Shown: positions 1-13,617 of the stretch, in pieces
How positions within the stretch are numbered: the stretch's first letter is position 1
Layout of the letters: each line of letters opens with the position of its first letter
Source of the DNA: Pantoea deleyi
Lineage (GTDB): Bacteria > Pseudomonadota > Gammaproteobacteria > Enterobacterales > Enterobacteriaceae
NCBI RefSeq assembly: GCF_022647325.1
Contig: NZ_CP071407.1
Span: 1-64,000 of the forward strand
Length of the DNA: 64,000 bases
Direction: 5' to 3'
Program-made: the position numbers and the translations under genes
Notes under the pieces: generated by a model
Databases searched by the model: none
What the model was told of the DNA's origin: nothing
The model's input: only the letters and a program-made list of their open reading frames with translations

Positions 1-930
1 ATGGCAGATAAAGACAACGAAAACAAAGCGTTACTAGAACCTTTTCTGTCAGTGACCAAAAACAGTGGTGAAGTTATCCAGCTTCATCCTAACAAGAATA
101 ATACCGTTCAGCCGGTGGCCTTAATGCGTCTGGGACTGTTCGTGCCAACGCTGAAATCGACGGCACGCGGTAAATCCGGTGCGATGGCCTCGACGGATGC
201 CACCAAAGAGCTGAAGAACCTGACGCTGGTAAAAGCCGAGGGCTACGAAAAGATTACCATCACCGGCGCGCGGCTGGATATGGATAACGATTTCAAAACC
301 TGGGCGGGCATCATTCAGTCTTTCTCGCGCTATCCCACCAAAGGCGACACGGTGACGCTGCCGTTTATCGACTTTGTGAAGATGTGTGGTATTCCCTCTG
401 CTAACTCTTCCGCAGCGCTGCGTAAGCGTCTGGATGCCTCTCTGCGCCGGATTGCGACCAATACCCTCTCCTTTGAAGGCAATGGCAAGGCGTATCATAC
501 CCACCTCGTGCAGTCTGCTTATTACGATCGTGAAAAAGATATCGTGCGTATTCAGGCCGATCCCAAGCTGTTTGAGCTCTACAATTTCGATCACAAGGTG
601 CTGCTTCAGCTTCGCGCGATATCCCGTCTTAAGCGCAAAGAGTCTGCACAGGCGCTCTACACCTTCCTGGAGAGCCTGCCGACCAACCCTGCACCCATCT
701 CGCTGGCCCGTCTGCGGATGCGCCTGAATCTCGGCTCCAAGACCACGACGCAGAACCATGTGGTGCGCCGCGCCATGGAGCAGCTTAAAGAGATTGGCTA
801 TCTGGATTACTCGGAAGTAAAGCGCGGGCGTTCTGTCTTCTTCATCATCCACAGCCGGACGCCTAAGCTCGATGGCATCGGGAATCTGGAAAGCATTGAG
901 TCGCTGGATGACATTGAGTTTGATGACTGA
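1..930 (+). CDS. repA: RepFIB-type plasmid replication initiator RepA
   Basis: Initiator of plasmid replication, 309 aa, Rep_3 family: two winged-helix domains that bind iterons and open the origin. The N-terminal 40 residues are polar; the first winged-helix domain spans roughly residues 40-175 and the second 180-290, where a run rich in Lys/Arg (around [14 protein letters not shown]) and the helix-turn-helix near residues 232-275 should contact DNA. Length fits RepFIB initiators. Numbering begins exactly at its ATG, as when a circular plasmid is linearised at repA. Arrays of the 15-bp repeat ACTGATTACAGTGAA lie directly downstream (inverted, 940-1066, and direct, 1188-2294), which supports the role. 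Family assignment is by recall; the iterons are seen directly. Confidence 0.95.
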
Positions 931-939
931 CTCCGCACA

Positions 940-1066
940 TTCACTGTAATCAGTCAGACCCGTGGCAGTGTCACGTTCGCTACCACCGCTGCAGTGGGAT
1001 CGGCGTCTTATCATTCACTGTAATCAGCTACATTCACTGTAATCAGCACCGTTCACTGTAATCAGT
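940..1066 (-). repeat. Iterons in inverted orientation downstream of repA
   Basis: Four copies of TTCACTGTAATCAGY, the reverse complement of the main iteron, at 940-954, 1014-1028, 1033-1047 and 1052-1066. The last three are spaced 19 bp centre to centre, so they lie nearly on the same helix side. They are probably RepA binding sites for copy-number control or handcuffing with the direct array. The role is inferred; the repeats are exact in the sequence. Confidence 0.9.
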
Positions 1067-1187
1067 ACGCAACGGCTCACGGGCAGTCCAGCCTTCAATC
1101 CCCTTTTCTTTGCCTGCGGTGGCATAAGCCTTTAAAGGTAAGTGTGTGCTTACATACATTCTCTGTCTGGCAGGTGACAACGCCACT

Positions 1188-2294
1188 GCTGATTACAGTG
1201 AATGCCCGCACGCTCGCTGAGAGCGAGGGCTTACTGATTACAGTGAACGTTACTGAATACAGTGAAGGGTGGCGGCCCGCCCTGCCGTTCAGGCTGGCAA
1301 CACAGGCTCAGCCTGCATAAAGGCCTGCTCATTATGATCTGCGGCGTGACACTGTTACTGATTACAGTGAATCATCGCGGACAGATCACCTCCCTTAACT
1401 CGTCCTGTGCAGGCTTACTGATTACAGTGAACGTCAGCTGCTGGTGTGATTCTGTGTGCCCGACAGATGCCTGACCGGGAACCGCTGCTGATTGCAGTGA
1501 ATGCTTACTGATTACAGTGAATGCTGGCGAGCGGAGGAGTGAACGCGTCGTCCTGTTTACTGATTACAGTGAATACCAGATCTAAAGCCCGCAGCGTAAA
1601 GCCTGTTTACCGCCATACAGCCAGAACAGCGTCTCGTTTAGCCCTTCCCGTTCATTCTGGTTGGTTAATGGCAGCATCTGCACGCACCCCTTCGTGCCAT
1701 CAGGCTGCGCGGTTATCACCTTATGCTCGCAGCGACGCTCGCCGACCTCTTCAGCCACCTGCCTCACTGCTGATTACAGTGAATGTTTGCGGGCTGGCTC
1801 TGTTTTTCTTCTGACTATAGTCAACGTTTCGCTGCTTGGCGGTTACTGATTACAGTGAATATAGGGTGGTGGATTGTTTTGTGATAAAGGTCACAGTTAA
1901 TTTTGAATAATTTCTGTTCTTCACCGCCGGTTTTTTGATCATCCAGAGGATATTGCGCAACGCTTTACTGATTACAGTGAACGTCGGGCAGACACATCGC
2001 TGCCGGGCATGACGGAAGCAGTGCTGATTACAGTGAACGTCAGGCAGACGATCCCAGGCAGCGGACTACTGATTACAGTGAATGTCTGAAGCGATACGTC
2101 CGCCCTCTTCCGCAGACAGGCAGGGCAAACAGGGTGACCCGCCCTTTCAGGGCGTCAGGCGACGATTACTGATTACAGTGAACGTTTACTGCTTTCTGAA
2201 CGCTTTTTACTCATCTGCCCGTCCGGTGCCTCCTGCATCCGTCAATAAGCCTTCCATAACTGATTACAGTGAACGTTCTGCTGATTACAGTGAA
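1188..2294 (+). repeat. Direct iteron array, probable replication origin
   Basis: About 17 direct copies of RCTGATTACAGTGAA begin at 1188, 1233, 1252 (degenerate), 1357, 1417, 1487 (one mismatch), 1507, 1559, 1769, 1810 (degenerate), 1845, 1967, 2023, 2068, 2168, 2259 and 2280. Spacing is irregular, from 20 to about 200 bp. A TA-rich stretch at about 1865-1925 sits inside the array and could be the unwinding region. No credible gene lies between repA and parA; short open frames here simply read through repeats. This is most likely oriV plus incompatibility control. Confidence 0.88.
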
Positions 2295-2416
2295 TCTTTT
2301 CAGGCCGGAAGCGCGGTCATTCTGGCAGGACAGTTACAATAATGTGATGTAGCTCACCAGAACCCGTGCAGTTGCATACAATCGCAGATTACGTTGAGAA
2401 GATAATTTATTGCCTC

Positions 2417-2450: not shown

Positions 2451-2467
2451 ACATGTTTGGAGCAACG

Positions 2468-3667
2468 ATGGCTAACGATGACAAGCAGGTGATGAAGGTT
2501 GCGCAGCGTTCAGAACGCATGCTGCTGAGCCTCACCGAACAAATCCAGGCGCAGAAGCAGGAGTTGCACGAAAACACCTATTATCAGGTCTATGCCAAAG
2601 CGGCACTGGCGAAGTTGCCAAAACTGACCCGGGCCAGTGTGGATTATGCTGTCAACGAGATGGAAGAGAGCGGTTATCAGTTCGATAAACGTGCGGCGGG
2701 TTCTTCCGTTAAATATGCCATGTCGATTCAGAACATTATCGATATCTACCATCATCGTGGCGTGCCGAAGTACCGGGATCGTCACGATGAGGCCTACACC
2801 CTGTTTGTTGGCAACCTGAAGGGCGGGGTCTCTAAAACGGTCTCCACCGTTTCTCTGGCGCATGCGCTGCGCGCCCACCCTCACCTCTTATATGAAGATC
2901 TGCGGATTCTGGTCATCGACCTCGATCCACAATCCTCTGCAACGATGTTTCTGAATCATGAGCGCTCCGTCGGGCTGGTGGAAGCGACCGCCGCGCAGGC
3001 GATGCTGCAGAACGTGTCGCGTGATGAGCTGATCAGCGAATTTATTGTGCCGTCGATCATTCCGGGAGTCGATGTGCTGCCGGCGTCGATCGATGACGCC
3101 TTTATCGCCTCACGCTGGGACGAGCTGTGCGCGGAACACCTGCCCGAACAAAATGTGCATGCCGTGCTGTATGACAACGTCATTGCCAAACTGAAGAAAG
3201 ATTATGACTTTATCTTTATCGACAGCGGGCCGCACCTGGATGCGTTTCTGAAAAATGCGATTGCGGCATCCGATCTGCTGATGACGCCTGTTCCTCCCGC
3301 TCAGGTTGATTTCCACTCGACGCTGAAATACCTGACGCGCCTGCCGGAGCTGATTGCGATTATTGAAGATTCCGGGGCAACCTGCCGTCTGCAGGGCAAC
3401 ATCGGCTTTATGTCCAAGCTTTCCAACAAAGCCGATCACAAACTTTGCCATAGTCTGGCAAAAGAGATTTTTGGGGGCGACATGCTCGATGCCGCCCTTC
3501 CCCGCCTCGATGGCTTCGAACGCTGCGGGGAATCATTTGATACGGTCATCTCCGCCAATCCGTCGACCTACGTCGGCAGCAGCGAAGCGCTGAAAAATGC
3601 GCGCTCAGCCGCTGAGGATTTTGCAAAAGCCGTGTTCGATCGTATCGAATTTATTCGCCTGAACTGA
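2468..3667 (+). CDS. parA: P1-type partition ATPase ParA
   Basis: Type Ia partition ATPase, 399 aa from ATG 2468. That start is preferred over ATG 2453 because TTTGGAGC lies 7 nt upstream, and it gives the length of P1 ParA (398 aa). An N-terminal DNA-binding region (about 1-110) carries out operator binding, followed by a deviant Walker A, KGGVSKT (about residues 117-123), a Walker A' motif ending DLDPQSSAT, and a Walker B region with FIFIDSGPHL. The whole chain matches remembered P1 ParA almost segment by segment, including GFMSKLSNKADHK and the C-terminus FDRIEFIR. It is co-transcribed with parB 7 nt downstream and probably autorepresses from the inverted repeat at 2423-2450. Confidence 0.95.
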   Translation: MANDDKQVMKVAQRSERMLLSLTEQIQAQKQELHENTYYQVYAKAALAKLPKLTRASVDYAVNEMEESGYQFDKRAAGSSVKYAMSIQNIIDIYHHRGVPKYRDRHDEAYTLFVGNLKGGVSKTVSTVSLAHALRAHPHLLYEDLRILVIDLDPQSSATMFLNHERSVGLVEATAAQAMLQNVSRDELISEFIVPSIIPGVDVLPASIDDAFIASRWDELCAEHLPEQNVHAVLYDNVIAKLKKDYDFIFIDSGPHLDAFLKNAIAASDLLMTPVPPAQVDFHSTLKYLTRLPELIAIIEDSGATCRLQGNIGFMSKLSNKADHKLCHSLAKEIFGGDMLDAALPRLDGFERCGESFDTVISANPSTYVGSSEALKNARSAAEDFAKAVFDRIEFIRLN

Positions 3668-3674
3668 GGTTTGT

Positions 3675-4646
3675 ATGAGCGCAAAGAGAATTACGATTGG
3701 CAGAACCTTCAGCCAGACTCCCCTGGAAAATGAGGCGCCTGACAGCCAGTATAATCAGACTTTCGTACTGGCCACGGGCAAGCGCGCCCTGTTTCGCTTT
3801 GAACGTATTGCCGCTGCTGAGGTTGAGAGTAAAACGTTTGTCACGATGGAAACCAACGGACGCGATCAGGCTGGCCTGACGCCCGATTCACTGCGTGACA
3901 TCATCCGCACGATCAAGCTGCAGCAGTTCTTCCCGGCCATTGGCGTGATGCGTGACGAGCGTATCGAGATCCTCGACGGCTCACGCCGCCGTGCGGCCGC
4001 GCTGCACTGCAAAACCGGCCTTGACGTGCTGGTCACGGATGCCGCCATTACTGCGGATGAAGCGCGCAGGCTGGCGCAGGATATTCAGACGGCGCGTGAA
4101 CATAATCTGCGTGAAGTGGGGATGCGCCTGCTGACGCTGAAAGATGGCGGCCTGTCGCAGAAAGAGATTGCTGAGAATCAGGGACTCTCCCAGGCGAAAG
4201 TTACCCGTGCCCTGCAGGCGGCCAGCGTGCCAGCCGACCTGATCACACTTTTTCCGAATCATGCCGAGCTGACTTATCCTGACTACAAGGCACTGTTACA
4301 GGCCACGGACAGGTTAAGCGAATCCGGACAAAGCATCGACACGTTAATCAATGCTATTTCGCGGGAAATTGATGTTGTCCGTGCCCGTGAAGGCCTGGCT
4401 GAGGATGAGCTGAAGAATCACATCCTGCGTCTGATCCGTCAGGGCAGCCAGACGCTGGTGAAGGAGCCGGAGAAAGATAAAACCCAGGCGACAACGCTCT
4501 GGTCGTTTGCGGACAAAGATCGCTTCGCCCGTAAAAAGGTGCGTGGCCGGATGTTCAGTTATGAGTTTAACCGTCAGTCGAAAGAGCTGCAGGAAGAGCT
4601 GGATAAAGTGATCGCAGAGACGCTGAAAAAGTATCTGAACCGGTAA
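3675..4646 (+). CDS. parB: P1-type centromere-binding protein ParB
   Basis: Centromere-binding protein, 323 aa, close in length to P1 ParB (333 aa). The order is: an N-terminal ParA-interacting segment, a ParB/sulfiredoxin-like region with LDGSRRRAA near residues 98-106, a helix-turn-helix at about 161-183 (QKEIAENQGLSQAKVTRALQ), and a C-terminal dimerisation domain, which in P1 also reads the short B boxes. Box A/box B motifs of the P1 kind lie downstream at 4727-4842 and again at 5141-5160 and 12556-12580, so a matching binding site is present. ATG 3675 follows TGAGGTTTGT. A hairpin terminator follows directly. Confidence 0.94.
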   Translation: MSAKRITIGRTFSQTPLENEAPDSQYNQTFVLATGKRALFRFERIAAAEVESKTFVTMETNGRDQAGLTPDSLRDIIRTIKLQQFFPAIGVMRDERIEILDGSRRRAAALHCKTGLDVLVTDAAITADEARRLAQDIQTAREHNLREVGMRLLTLKDGGLSQKEIAENQGLSQAKVTRALQAASVPADLITLFPNHAELTYPDYKALLQATDRLSESGQSIDTLINAISREIDVVRAREGLAEDELKNHILRLIRQGSQTLVKEPEKDKTQATTLWSFADKDRFARKKVRGRMFSYEFNRQSKELQEELDKVIAETLKKYLNR

Positions 4647-4691: not shown

Positions 4692-4726
4692 GCCTGCTCA
4701 TCACTGTTTCATCCGGGATGCAGCCA

Positions 4727-4842
4727 ATTTCAGGCTGAAATCGCCACGCTTTATCACGGTAGTTCAAGGTTAATTAATTGATATTATTATTCTTTTTTAA
4801 TTATTACCAGCCTGAAATCGCCAGGCTTTTGTGAAATTTCAG
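4727..4842. other. P1-like parS centromere
   Basis: The left arm has A-type boxes ATTTCAG (4727-4733) and CTGAAAT (4735-4741) running into B-box TCGCCA (4741-4746). The right arm has CTGAAAT (4812-4818) with TCGCCA (4818-4823), then GTGAAAT (4831-4837) and ATTTCAG (4836-4842). P1 parS has the same plan: heptamer A boxes of the ATTTCAA/C kind next to hexamer TCGCCA B boxes, in two arms around an IHF bend. The element is longer than P1 parS because the arms are about 65 bp apart. It sits right after parB, as in P1. Confidence 0.85.
4771..4783 (-). promoter_or_regulatory. IHF binding site inside parS
   Basis: TAATTAATTGATA matches the reverse complement of the IHF consensus WATCAANNNNTTR at every fixed position. 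It lies in the AT-rich stretch between the two parS arms, where P1 parS is bent by IHF. Confidence 0.75.
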
Positions 4843-5140: not shown

Positions 5141-5160
5141 ATTTCAGGCTGAAATCGCCA
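5141..5160. other. Extra parS half-element
   Basis: ATTTCAG (5141-5147), CTGAAAT (5149-5155) and TCGCCA (5155-5160) repeat the left arm of the main parS exactly, 414 bp further on. It is probably an additional ParB site. The rest of 4843-5707 holds the DnaA-box repeat and stray iterons described separately, and no convincing gene. Confidence 0.7.
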
Positions 5161-10970: not shown

Positions 10971-12422
10971 ATGAGTGCAAATACACCAGATTCTGGTGAT
11001 GCAGGCGATCACGCGCCTGCGGATACGGTACGCCAGCGTATTTTTTTAGTGGTGCTGGTAGCGACGATGGGGGCGCTGGCCTTTGGTTATGACACCGGGA
11101 TCATTTCGGGCGCACTGCCCTATATGAACTCACCGCCGGATCAGGGCGGGCTGGGACTGAACGCCTTTACGGAAGGACTTGTCGCCTCTTCGCTGGTGTT
11201 CGGCGCCGCCATTGGCTCCTTCCTGAGTGGGTTCTTCTCTGACCGTTTTGGCCGCCGTATTACGCTGCGCAGCCTGGCGGTGATCTTTGTGCTGGGTTCA
11301 CTGGGTACGGCGCTGGCACCCTCGGTTAACGTGATGGTGGCGATGCGCTTCCTGCTGGGTATCGCGGTGGGCGGTGGCTCGTCAACCGTGCCGGTGTTTA
11401 TCGCTGAAATTGCCGGGCCGCGATTGCGCGCGCCGCTGGTCAGTCGCAACGAACTGATGATCGTCACCGGCCAGCTGGTGGCGTATGTCGCCAGTACGCT
11501 GCTGAGCTATCTGCTGCACGATGAGCACCTGTGGCGTTACATGCTGGCGATTGCGATGGTGCCGGGCCTGCTGCTGTTTATCGGCACCTTCTTCGTACCG
11601 GCGTCGCCGCACTGGCTGGTGGCGGAAGGACGTCTGCGCGAGGCGAAAAAAATCCTGAAGTATCTGCGTGAAACGCCACGCGAAGTCCGTCATGAGATGG
11701 CACAGATGAAGAAGCAGGCCAGGGCAGCCGAGCGCGGCCCGGATGCGAAAACCCTGATCCGCGAGAAATGGGTGATTCGTCTGATGATCATTGGTGTCGG
11801 TCTTGGCTTTGTCGCGCAGTTTACCGGGGTCAACGGCTTCATGTACTACACGCCCATTATCCTGAAGTCCACCGGACTGGGCACCAGCGCCTCGATCGCC
11901 GCCACCATCGGCAACGGCGTGGTCTCCGTGATGGCGACCTTTGTCGGCATCTGGGCCATCAGCCGCTTCCCGCGCCGCACGATGCTGATTACCGGTCTGT
12001 GTCTGGTGATCACCGCGCAGATCCTGCTGGGCGGCGTGCTGACCTTTATGAGTTCCAGCCTGATGCAGAGCTATCTGGCTCTGGCCTGTATTCTGCTGTT
12101 CCTGTTCTGCATGCAGATGTGTATTTCACCGGTCTACTGGCTGATGATGTCGGAGCTGTTCCCGATGCAGCTGCGCGGTGTGCTGACCGGCGGGGCCGTT
12201 TCGCTGCAGTGGATATTCAACGCCGTGGTCGCCTTTGGTTTCCCCCCGGTTATGGCCTATGCGGGCAGCACGACCTTCTTTATCTTCGCCGCCATCAATG
12301 TCGGTTCACTGATCTTCGTGATGGCGATGGTCCCTGAAACGCGGGGCAAGAGTCTGGAAGAGATCGAGACGCACATGAAAGAGAAGTTTGGTGAAAAGCC
12401 GAAAGAGGCTGAAGCCGTCTGA
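10971..12422 (+). CDS. Sugar porter family MFS transporter
   Basis: Inner-membrane sugar:proton symporter, 483 aa with 12 predicted membrane segments. Sugar-porter signatures are clear: FGYDTGIISGALPY in segment 1, RFGRR in the 2-3 loop, PASPHWLVAEGR before the central loop, FTGVNGFMYYTP in segment 7, and PETRGKSLEEIE at the C-terminus. The central loop (about 225-265) is basic. These motifs place it with XylE, GalP, AraE and inositol carriers; the substrate cannot be fixed. GGCAGGAATATT precedes the ATG. It stands alone on the plus strand with a strong terminator, next to but not in the transketolase operon. Confidence 0.9.
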   Translation: MSANTPDSGDAGDHAPADTVRQRIFLVVLVATMGALAFGYDTGIISGALPYMNSPPDQGGLGLNAFTEGLVASSLVFGAAIGSFLSGFFSDRFGRRITLRSLAVIFVLGSLGTALAPSVNVMVAMRFLLGIAVGGGSSTVPVFIAEIAGPRLRAPLVSRNELMIVTGQLVAYVASTLLSYLLHDEHLWRYMLAIAMVPGLLLFIGTFFVPASPHWLVAEGRLREAKKILKYLRETPREVRHEMAQMKKQARAAERGPDAKTLIREKWVIRLMIIGVGLGFVAQFTGVNGFMYYTPIILKSTGLGTSASIAATIGNGVVSVMATFVGIWAISRFPRRTMLITGLCLVITAQILLGGVLTFMSSSLMQSYLALACILLFLFCMQMCISPVYWLMMSELFPMQLRGVLTGGAVSLQWIFNAVVAFGFPPVMAYAGSTTFFIFAAINVGSLIFVMAMVPETRGKSLEEIETHMKEKFGEKPKEAEAV

Positions 12423-12429
12423 CCCATCA

Positions 12430-12464
12430 CCGGATTCAGCCCGACGCTGAATCCGGTTTTTTTT
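12430..12464 (+). terminator. Rho-independent terminator after the sugar porter
   Basis: CCGGATTCAG (12430-12439), a 7-nt loop, CTGAATCCGG (12447-12456), then eight T residues. The arms are perfect. Confidence 0.92.
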
Positions 12465-12555
12465 ATCCGCTTTCTGCGACGTGCCTGTCTTCCTTCTCGC
12501 CTCATGCAAACTGTCAGCGTTCACTGTAAAGGGCAGGTGAGTGCGGGTGCAACGC

Positions 12556-12580
12556 TGGCGATTTCAGCCTGAAATCGCCA
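12556..12580. other. Satellite parS palindrome
   Basis: B-box TGGCGA (12556-12561), A-box ATTTCAG (12561-12567), one spacer base, A-box CTGAAAT (12569-12575), B-box TCGCCA (12575-12580): a perfect 25-bp palindrome with both box types of the main parS on each side. It lies 7.7 kb from the main centromere in a gene-free stretch (12465-12762) that also holds an iteron-like TTCACTGTAA near 12527. No gene was found in this stretch. Confidence 0.7.
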
Positions 12581-12762
12581 GAACCGGGCAGTGAAATTCT
12601 GGCCGGTTATCGCCGCGAACGCCCGTGAGCCGGGCATATCATCCGCTACAGACTGATCGTCATCCGTTTTCTTTCGCCAAAAGCCTGCTGGCAGAAACAG
12701 GCCACTGTCTGTGGGTGACAGACGTGACGGCATCACATCCTGGTGACCTCGCCTGTTGAAGG

Positions 12763-13617
12763 TTACAGAGCATTCAGCGTCGCCATCACCTCATCCGACA
12801 ACGCCAGATTGCCGCTGGCCAGGTTCTCCCGCAGATGTTCGGGTGAGGAGGTGCCGGGGATGAGCAGGATATTGGGTGAGCGGCGCAGCAGCCACGCCAG
12901 CGCGACCTGCATCGGTGTGGCATCCAGCGAGGCCGCTACGTCATTCAGCTGCGCCAGCTTCAGCGGCGCAAAGCCGCCCAGCGGGAAAAAGGGCACCCAG
13001 GCAATGCCCTGCTGCGCCAGACTGTCCACCAGCTCATCATCCTGGCGGTGTGCGAGGTTATACATATTCTGCACGCAGGCAATCGGCGTCATCGCCTGGG
13101 CTTCAGCGATCTGGGTGGCCGTGACGTTACTCAGTCCAATGTGCCGGATGAGTCCGCGATCCTTTAAGGCCAGCAGCGCTTCCAGCTGCGGGGCAAGCGA
13201 GCCCTCTTTGGGTCTGGCCGGATGCAGCATACTGCGCAGATTCACCACTTCAATCACGTCCAGCCCCAGGTGACGCAGATTATCTTCCACGGCCTGCGTC
13301 AGCGCCTCCGGCTCCATCGCCGCATGCCAGCCCCCTTTGGCATCCCGCCGGGCGCCCACTTTGGTTACAATGCACAGGTCCTGCGGATAGGGATAGAGGC
13401 TCTTTTTGATTAACAGGTTCGTTTCGTGCGGGCCATAAAAATCGCTGGTGTCGATATGATTGACGCCTGCTTCAATCGCGTCGCGCAGAACCTGCATGGC
13501 ACGGGCTTCATCTTTCACCGGCCCGAACACGCCCGGCCCGGCGAGCTGCATTGCGCCAAAACCGATACGGTTAACGTCACGATCGCCTAACTGAAAAGTC
13601 ATGGTGCTGTCTGACAT
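12763..13617 (-). CDS. pdxI: Aldo/keto reductase, YdbC/PdxI-like
   Basis: NADPH-dependent aldo/keto reductase of 284 aa. Active-site Asp and Tyr fall in HIDTSDFYGPHE (about residues 52-63), Lys in IVTKVGARR, and the cofactor-binding end in LIPGTSSPEHLRENLAS. It agrees along its length with remembered E. coli YdbC (286 aa), including GAMQLAGPGVFGP and FFPLGGF, which is a pyridoxal reductase of vitamin B6 salvage. A perfect AGGAGG lies 5 nt before the ATG. It stands alone. Function is by family resemblance; other carbonyl substrates are possible. Confidence 0.85.
   Translation of the reverse strand: MSDSTMTFQLGDRDVNRIGFGAMQLAGPGVFGPVKDEARAMQVLRDAIEAGVNHIDTSDFYGPHETNLLIKKSLYPYPQDLCIVTKVGARRDAKGGWHAAMEPEALTQAVEDNLRHLGLDVIEVVNLRSMLHPARPKEGSLAPQLEALLALKDRGLIRHIGLSNVTATQIAEAQAMTPIACVQNMYNLAHRQDDELVDSLAQQGIAWVPFFPLGGFAPLKLAQLNDVAASLDATPMQVALAWLLRRSPNILLIPGTSSPEHLRENLASGNLALSDEVMATLNAL

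Follow-up and report, generated by a model that had tools for sequence, protein, structure and literature searches.

The window, by which we mean the whole stretch of 64,000 nucleotides that was analysed, corresponds to the initial 64 kb of contig C3 (450,383 bp) in a genome of 4.68 Mb assembled in 4 contigs, and from its start the genes run in the order repA, iteron array, parA, parB. The repA gene (1..930, + strand; PF01051, PF21205) belongs to the Rep3 family, and the array of RepA iterons beside it (939..2295, no strand assigned) has the consensus CTGATTACAGTGAA in 18 exact copies. The parA gene (2453..3667, + strand; PF18607, PF13614) is of type Ia and parB (3675..4646, + strand; PF08775) of the P1 type. 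The feature considered here, a predicted satellite ParB-type site at 12556..12580 (no strand assigned), lies between the 3′ ends of two convergent genes: a sugar-porter MFS gene (10971..12422, + strand; PF00083), whose 3′ end borders it, and an aldo/keto reductase gene (12763..13617, − strand; PF00248). An intrinsic terminator of the sugar-porter gene, distinct from the palindrome of the satellite, occupies 12429..12457 (+ strand), and relatives have a hairpin at its place. The satellite stands 7.9 kb from the end of parB, near enough to the 7.7 kb given in the sequence-only reading of this DNA that we followed up.

The nearest named records are Pantoea megaplasmids of 235–634 kb, with a ParB identity of 90–94%, on which basis we classify the window replicon as a plasmid of the LPP-1 type. 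In its DNA-binding half, the window ParB shares 103 of 187 residues with the P1 ParB chains 2ntz/1zx4, and in the helix-turn-helix core 17 of 21; both the Pfam match and the comparison with the P1 chains identify it as a ParB with a P1-like helix-turn-helix and dimer domain. The accessible text of PMC10999674 describes a comparable Pantoea agglomerans plasmid, which has a P1-like parS after parB and whose loss is scored there by pigment and thiamine requirement. The second plasmid of the same genome, C2, encodes a P1-like ParB of its own (G000:C2:154405-155343, L066), which is 41% identical to that of the window. C2 holds zero palindrome or core sites, and no A/B-box parS is recognisable in the stretch inspected near its ParB, for which reason this plasmid, intended as a positive control, is usable as a negative control only.

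The sequence at 12556–12580, TGGCGATTTCAGCCTGAAATCGCCA, can be written as TGGCGATTTCAG-C-CTGAAATCGCCA and is, as the sequence-only reading had it, a perfect 25-bp palindrome about one centre base, extendable to 27 bp (12555–12581) by one outer C..G pair. Its claim that both box types are present in symmetric form is equally borne out by the B-A-N-A-B architecture, in which two minimal A-A-B sites overlap. These are two copies of ATTTCAG-N-CTGAAAT-CGCCA, the repeat unit of the main parS 3′ of parB, and the boxes, an inverted A pair and then a B, come in the order of that cognate parS. The main parS consists of a first A-A-B unit (4727..4746, + strand), a right-hand degenerate unit with 3 mismatches after an AT-rich spacer (4804..4823, + strand) and a second A-A-B unit (5141..5160, + strand). 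The satellite 20-mer equals the first of these units except for the free centre base. Over its full length, the palindrome is cleaner than the main parS arms, as had been noticed, since 3 bases differ in the left arm and the right arm keeps only one complete A box. The element at 5141–5160 had been taken for a stray half-element; it is better described as the second unit of a two-unit parS, the usual layout in relatives, most of which have parS units about 0.1 kb and about 0.3–0.5 kb after parB. The satellite itself is a single palindrome with no second arm nearby, so that it does not form a full two-arm parS around an IHF site, and inspection by eye finds that its location has nothing but the boxes in common with parS; we therefore reject the duplication of a parS block.

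Within the 64-kb window, with up to 3 mismatches allowed, the core ATTTCAGNCTGAAAT is matched 9 times, three of the matches being perfect (4727, 5141 and 12561); 100 shuffles gave 2.06 matches on average and at most 6. Without mismatch, the 15-mer core occurs at only these three positions in the whole 4.68 Mb genome, all of them on C3. The 25-mer is present in a single copy genome-wide at up to 2 mismatches; at 3 mismatches the sole addition is the main parS arm at 4722–4746, and the chromosome of this genome, where the motif might have been scattered at random frequency, holds zero 25-mers at that threshold. The 20-mer A-A-B sequence is found at 8 places genome-wide at up to 3 mismatches, 7 of them on the window replicon. 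A weaker match to it with 2 mismatches, TTTTCAGCCTGAAATCGCCC (G000:C3:350424-350443), lies on the same replicon and is possibly another ParB site. The reversed-query control was 0 in every genome in most searches (25-mer, genus, pair, iteron and family draw). It was nonzero for the 15-mer at 1 mismatch (2+2), for the 20-mer at 3 mismatches (1) and in two genomes outside the genus (1 each), so weak matches in those searches can be due to chance. For the palindrome itself, a chance origin is rejected on the grounds of the shuffles, its genome-wide uniqueness and its link to a related ParB in the family draw described below. Among phage records, a 45-bp query retrieved 11 entries (best E 0.8), with the palindrome in none; among plasmid records it retrieved 163, of which 95 are from Pantoea, many of the 163 being weak at the E limit of 10. 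One plasmid that carries the site is pPagL15_1 (NZ_CP034149) of the Pantoea agglomerans biocontrol strain L15, with the satellite at 527465–527494.

Fifteen genomes could be aligned at the place that the satellite occupies in the window, on the 3′ side of the sugar-porter gene. Of the first 20 palindrome columns, 19 are invariant, the centre base being free; in the flanks, terminator and iteron left out, the same 15 genomes agree in only 6 columns out of 234. The B-A-A part has thus remained unchanged in 15/15 while the surrounding DNA diverged, which indicates that the satellite is under selection. The second B box is kept in 11 of the 15, and the other four keep only one B box.

The genus survey covered 61 genomes, 53 of which have an orthologous parB (71–100% identical). 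One of these copies is in two pieces: in G060 (G060:C5:69192-70159) the parB match consists of two overlapping parts, the second with two internal TGA codons, so that this gene is either broken or misassembled, though sites remain on its contig. At up to 1 mismatch, the 20-mer is present in 53/61 genomes and in 0/8 of those without orthologous parB, one of the eight being only 74% complete. A further A-A-B site more than 2.5 kb from parB on the parB contig is found in 48/53 genomes with orthologous parB, or in 46/53 when G003 and G032, whose only distant site is coding, are dropped; G029 and G041, both from small-genome species, have no distant sites. Altogether, 209 sites were tabulated (palindromes merged). 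Of these, 104 are within 2.5 kb of parB and belong to parS, another 80 share the parB contig at a greater distance, and the remaining 25 are found on different contigs. All but one of these 25 are in draft assemblies, where the replicon is not assignable, and two of them are the parS of G019, whose contig is broken there; dropping these two leaves 103 distant sites. In the 17 genomes of at most 6 contigs there are 29 non-coding distant sites on the parB replicon and 0 elsewhere, so that the non-coding sites are confined to replicons with the cognate ParB. The same 17 genomes contain two coding distant sites, one on the parB replicon (G032) and one chromosomal (G004, 1 mismatch).

Coding distant sites number 6 of 103: four in one gene of 552–553 aa, one in a 729-aa frame of G032, and the chromosomal one. 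They may be coincidences. Not counted as coding were two sites in 297- and 125-aa frames with apparently over-extended starts (L118, L153), and any in frames below 100 aa. Three genomes have the 20-mer, at one mismatch, inside the conserved 552–553-aa frame (twice in G003, once each in G005 and G053; L009, L112, L117, L175), by chance or as a site embedded in the gene.

The distant sites occupy more than 10 distinct gene neighbourhoods, several of them common to related species; examples are the 3′ side of an alcohol dehydrogenase gene and the very end of a DJ-1/PfpI gene. Many satellites are half-sites, with a non-palindromic outer part and up to 6 mismatches on the other side. The number of satellites correlates with replicon size (Spearman 0.66, p 0.004, n=17), a figure of little weight as the species are related. 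Seven genomes (G012, G013, G017, G028, G040, G055, G056) have sites 20–70 kb from parB and one 227–308 kb away, which on these large LPP-1 plasmids, their contigs taken as circular, lies towards the far side of the replicon.

Neighbouring genes could be counted for 95 sites: they are convergent at 50, run in the same direction at 38 and diverge at 7, and 13 of the 95 sites overlap a stop codon. To judge from this context, the placement is that of a protein-binding site away from promoters and not that of a gene regulator. Silencing near parS by ParB is known (PMC6238139, accessible part), and the sequence-only reading had suggested silencing of nearby genes, which at this locus would mean that ParB represses or insulates the adjoining metabolic genes. 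With most sites at gene 3′ ends and about half between convergent genes, with neighbours that differ between locations, and with no promoter-like match in a scan of 12350–12800, we regard such local regulation as very improbable. A transcription terminator or a hairpin element unrelated to ParB would agree with the intergenic position and with the strong fold of the palindrome as RNA (−20.3 kcal/mol, z −4.35). Yet no T-run follows the palindrome hairpin, which does not qualify as an intrinsic terminator, and the terminator scan finds only the separate element at 12429–12457. Since many satellites are moreover half-sites, and it is the letters rather than the pairing that are kept, we reject this reading as scarcely credible.

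Outside the genus, the palindrome was searched at up to 2 mismatches in a family draw of 392 genomes, a related ParB being defined as a match at E 1e-90 (32 genomes); the palindrome count and the ParB count are taken as coming from one and the same draw. It is present in 7/32 genomes with a related ParB and in 0/360 of the others (Fisher p 1e-8). For the 27 of the 32 that lie outside the genus, the general motif is matched in 27/27. Extra sites are found in some genomes beyond Pantoea, such as four of genus g109, G269, G156 and G186, but others lack them. Notable among the latter are six sources with the parS core ATTTCAAGGTGAAATCGCC (G122, G204, G228, G318, G419, G437), each of which has one perfect site; this implies that satellites are not needed for P1-type partition; in three of the six, further 1-mismatch matches lie on other contigs.

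Covariation of the boxes between parS and satellite is weak, Pantoea having one consensus throughout. In genus g109, two of four plasmids carry the A box ATTTCAC in both parS and satellite, and the other two have ATTTCAT in the satellite. Two P1-type plasmids (G179:C2:42205-42357 and G415:C2:7624) have a B box that begins with TCTCC, not TCGCC, and represent a natural specificity variant; neither G179 nor G415 carries a satellite, and hence they allow no comparison of B-box covariation. A cluster of seven ParB-type sites is located about 8–11 kb upstream of parB in G186:C2 (L195:2738-6102). Four of these are perfect, one of them being a perfect 25-mer palindrome, and three have 1 mismatch; four are spaced exactly 265 bp apart, in the manner of a tandem array.

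Taken together, we consider that 12556–12580 is probably an auxiliary ParB-binding site, or satellite parS, of the P1-type ParABS system of an LPP-1-type megaplasmid. Extra sites are a genus-wide feature of related Pantoea megaplasmids and are kept on most of them. At the level of sequence, the proposal of a secondary ParB-type site made by the sequence-only reading has held up: the satellite has the box architecture of parS, is conserved against its flanks, lies on the parB replicon, and is restricted to genomes with this parB or a related one; that ParB would also nucleate or spread from there, as that reading suggested, is a prediction. From these observations, and from the recurrence of such sites at many places, we infer ParB binding, loading and an effect on partition. 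Of the boxes in P1 parS, ParB needs no more than A2-A3 and B2 in order to bind, and its specificity is determined by the B box (PMC10999674, in its accessible text). The two half-sites of the satellite, sharing one A-A inverted repeat, would accordingly be suited to take a ParB helix-turn-helix pair, with the B box on either side receiving the dimerisation domain of the protein. ParB, which gathers at the main parS as well (7.9 kb off), would then load at the satellite and be held in the same cluster, and the ParB so loaded could enlarge or anchor the partition complex on this 0.45 Mb replicon; in larger relatives, sites at 20–300 kb would need looping in order to join the complex. In systems studied, ParB reaches more than 10 kb from parS (PMC6238139, accessible part). 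By analogy, a satellite at 7.9 kb may lie in DNA to which ParB extends from parS anyway, and add little; since it would be within that reach, it may strengthen or anchor one complex.

The second element of this locus is a RepA iteron. In 14/15 genomes at the window's location, the satellite has a perfect iteron, TTCACTGTAATCAG, 21–32 bp away in the direction of parB. The corresponding element of the window plasmid (12519..12533, − strand), 22 bp from the palindrome, has decayed to TTCACTGTAAAGGG, with 3 mismatches to CTGATTACAGTGAAC, which is perfect in the 14 other genomes. The exact iteron 14-mer was searched in five whole genomes (G000, G007, G015, G050, G057). In G015, G050 and G057 it is confined to the origin region and one copy elsewhere, which adjoins the satellite, and G007 has one further exact 14-mer on the chromosome. 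The window's own genome, G000, has 18 exact 14-mers in the array, one more at 0.1 kb from the end of the contig, next to repA if the contig is circular, and none at the satellite. Across the genus, an iteron with at most 1 mismatch is found within 100 bp of 20/103 distant sites, as compared with 2/617 background windows; beside the remaining 83/103, degenerate iterons are about as frequent as background. The pair TTCACTGTAATCAG-(10-40)-TGGCGATTTCAG is present in 17/61 genus genomes (reversed control 0), and at other locations in G004, G014, G021 and G033, and twice each in G003, G005 (less exact) and G053. The gaps between iteron and site fall into classes of 30–32, 20–21 and 10–16 bp, which is suggestive of helical phasing.

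Comparable arrangements occur elsewhere. In six plasmids from three other genera, an extra ParB site lies 46–104 bp beyond the iterons 3′ of repA; the iteron sequence in these is different, and repA is confirmed by Pfam in 2/6. Four loci of genus g109 (L189:7160-7332, L190:1422-1495, L191:2227-2300, L192:2191-2263) have an iteron-like copy with 0–2 mismatches about 40 bp from a main parS unit. In G080:C2 (L197:10575-10587), a lone RepA iteron that has no adjoining ParB site stands between convergent frames, 4.2 kb beyond parB, and is in this respect the mirror image of the window's satellite. In G003, G005 and G053 (L198:3973-4620, L199:4369-5000, L200:3417-4010), a ParB site is followed by an iteron and an inverted iteron downstream of parB; this module is present twice, 518–567 bp apart, with exact iterons in G003 and less exact ones in the others.

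It could be, then, that the satellite belongs to a paired RepA-iteron/ParB site which couples replication and segregation, and of which only the ParB half is left in the window plasmid. RepA bound to the lone iteron could serve as a roadblock or handcuff the origin, and ParB loaded 21–32 bp away could relieve or limit this action, so that replication is licensed after segregation. The perfect iteron in 14/15 genomes, its enrichment beside distant sites, the exact 14-mers found outside the origin region only beside the satellite in G015, G050 and G057, and the recurrence of the pair at other locations and with different iterons in three other genera all speak for such coupling. So do two precedents, each from the accessible part of its source: on Vibrio cholerae chromosome II, where coupling of this sort has been proposed, ParB2 reaches one initiator-binding 39-mer by spreading and binds another (PMC3688505), and on P1 and F replication initiator complexes keep ParB from spreading (PMC6238139). 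However, 83/103 distant sites have no iteron above background, which means that ParB sites are kept independently of the iteron. One iteron would presumably make a weak handcuff, and RepA binding to it is a prediction. As the iteron half is broken in the window plasmid, coupling is unlikely as a present function there, and we hold this explanation of the locus to be possible, in a tentative sense. A wider version, which we regard as speculative, would posit a dispersed network of ParB sites on P1-type megaplasmids, which in several lineages combines an off-origin iteron with an off-centromere ParB site, such that ParB loading gates RepA handcuffing or copy control, the pairing having arisen or been kept with different iterons.

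The modules of G003, G005 and G053 lie within about 3 kb after parB, and the species compared at the window's location have between 2.8 and 8.5 kb of DNA separating satellite and parB. Both would fit a displaced relic, that is, part of a longer parS/iteron cluster that was carried off by gene insertions and persists by inertia, a displacement of the kind proposed for the 3parS locus of pAMI4 (accessible text of PMC9040568). Against this, the invariance of the site amid diverged flanks argues for selection, and other sites lie 20–300 kb away in other neighbourhoods. Displacement accounts for origin and not for maintenance, and as an explanation of the satellite we find it improbable.

If the satellite is an auxiliary ParB site, its wider meaning lies in the kind of replicon that carries it. 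Conserved, scattered ParB sites on a genus-wide family of plasmids of 0.2–1 Mb, an intermediate between plasmid and chromosome, would reveal how partition is adapted to the size of the replicon. The lone iteron with its ParB palindrome would make the replication-segregation cross-talk of low-copy replicons, a long-standing question, testable by small deletions, and the decayed iteron of the window offers a natural variant for comparison.

The linear phage-plasmid N15 has its partition sites IR1-4 scattered over the genome, and on Vibrio cholerae chromosome II the 39-mer is distinct from the ordinary iterons. N15 resembles the Pantoea plasmids in having several ParB-type sites (PMC7205306, accessible part), with a different ParB (SopB) and a different motif. 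In Vibrio cholerae chromosome II, ParB acts on an initiator-binding site by spreading or by direct binding (parS2-B and 39-mer; accessible text of PMC3688505), whereas the coupling suggested here is read from adjacency alone. With the P1-type parS of phage-plasmid P1 and of Pantoea agglomerans pPagL15_1 (PMC10999674), the satellite has in common the A and B boxes, the ParB family and the A-A-B core. It differs in its symmetric B-A-A-B form, in having by eye no second arm or IHF spacer, and in lying kilobases from parB. The accessible text of that paper describes only a parS after parB and no distant sites, and that of the LPP-1 paper (PMC3505739) contains no occurrence of parS or iteron; we found no report of distant Pantoea ParB sites in the literature accessible to search, which is only part of the whole. 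Plasmids typically have one parS near parAB, and some have more (accessible part of PMC5002424). What makes the present case of interest is that sites are scattered in this way across the genus and, most of all, that some are paired with iterons. The nearest known case is the 3parS locus of pAMI4, a 438-kb megaplasmid of Paracoccus aminophilus, where, according to the accessible text of PMC9040568, extra centromere sites lie 11.5 kb from rep/par and are essential for proper partition. There, three sites are gathered in a 2-kb locus of a repABC/RepB replicon and are not found in its closest relatives, whereas the Pantoea megaplasmids have single sites, a P1-type ParB and a genus-wide distribution.
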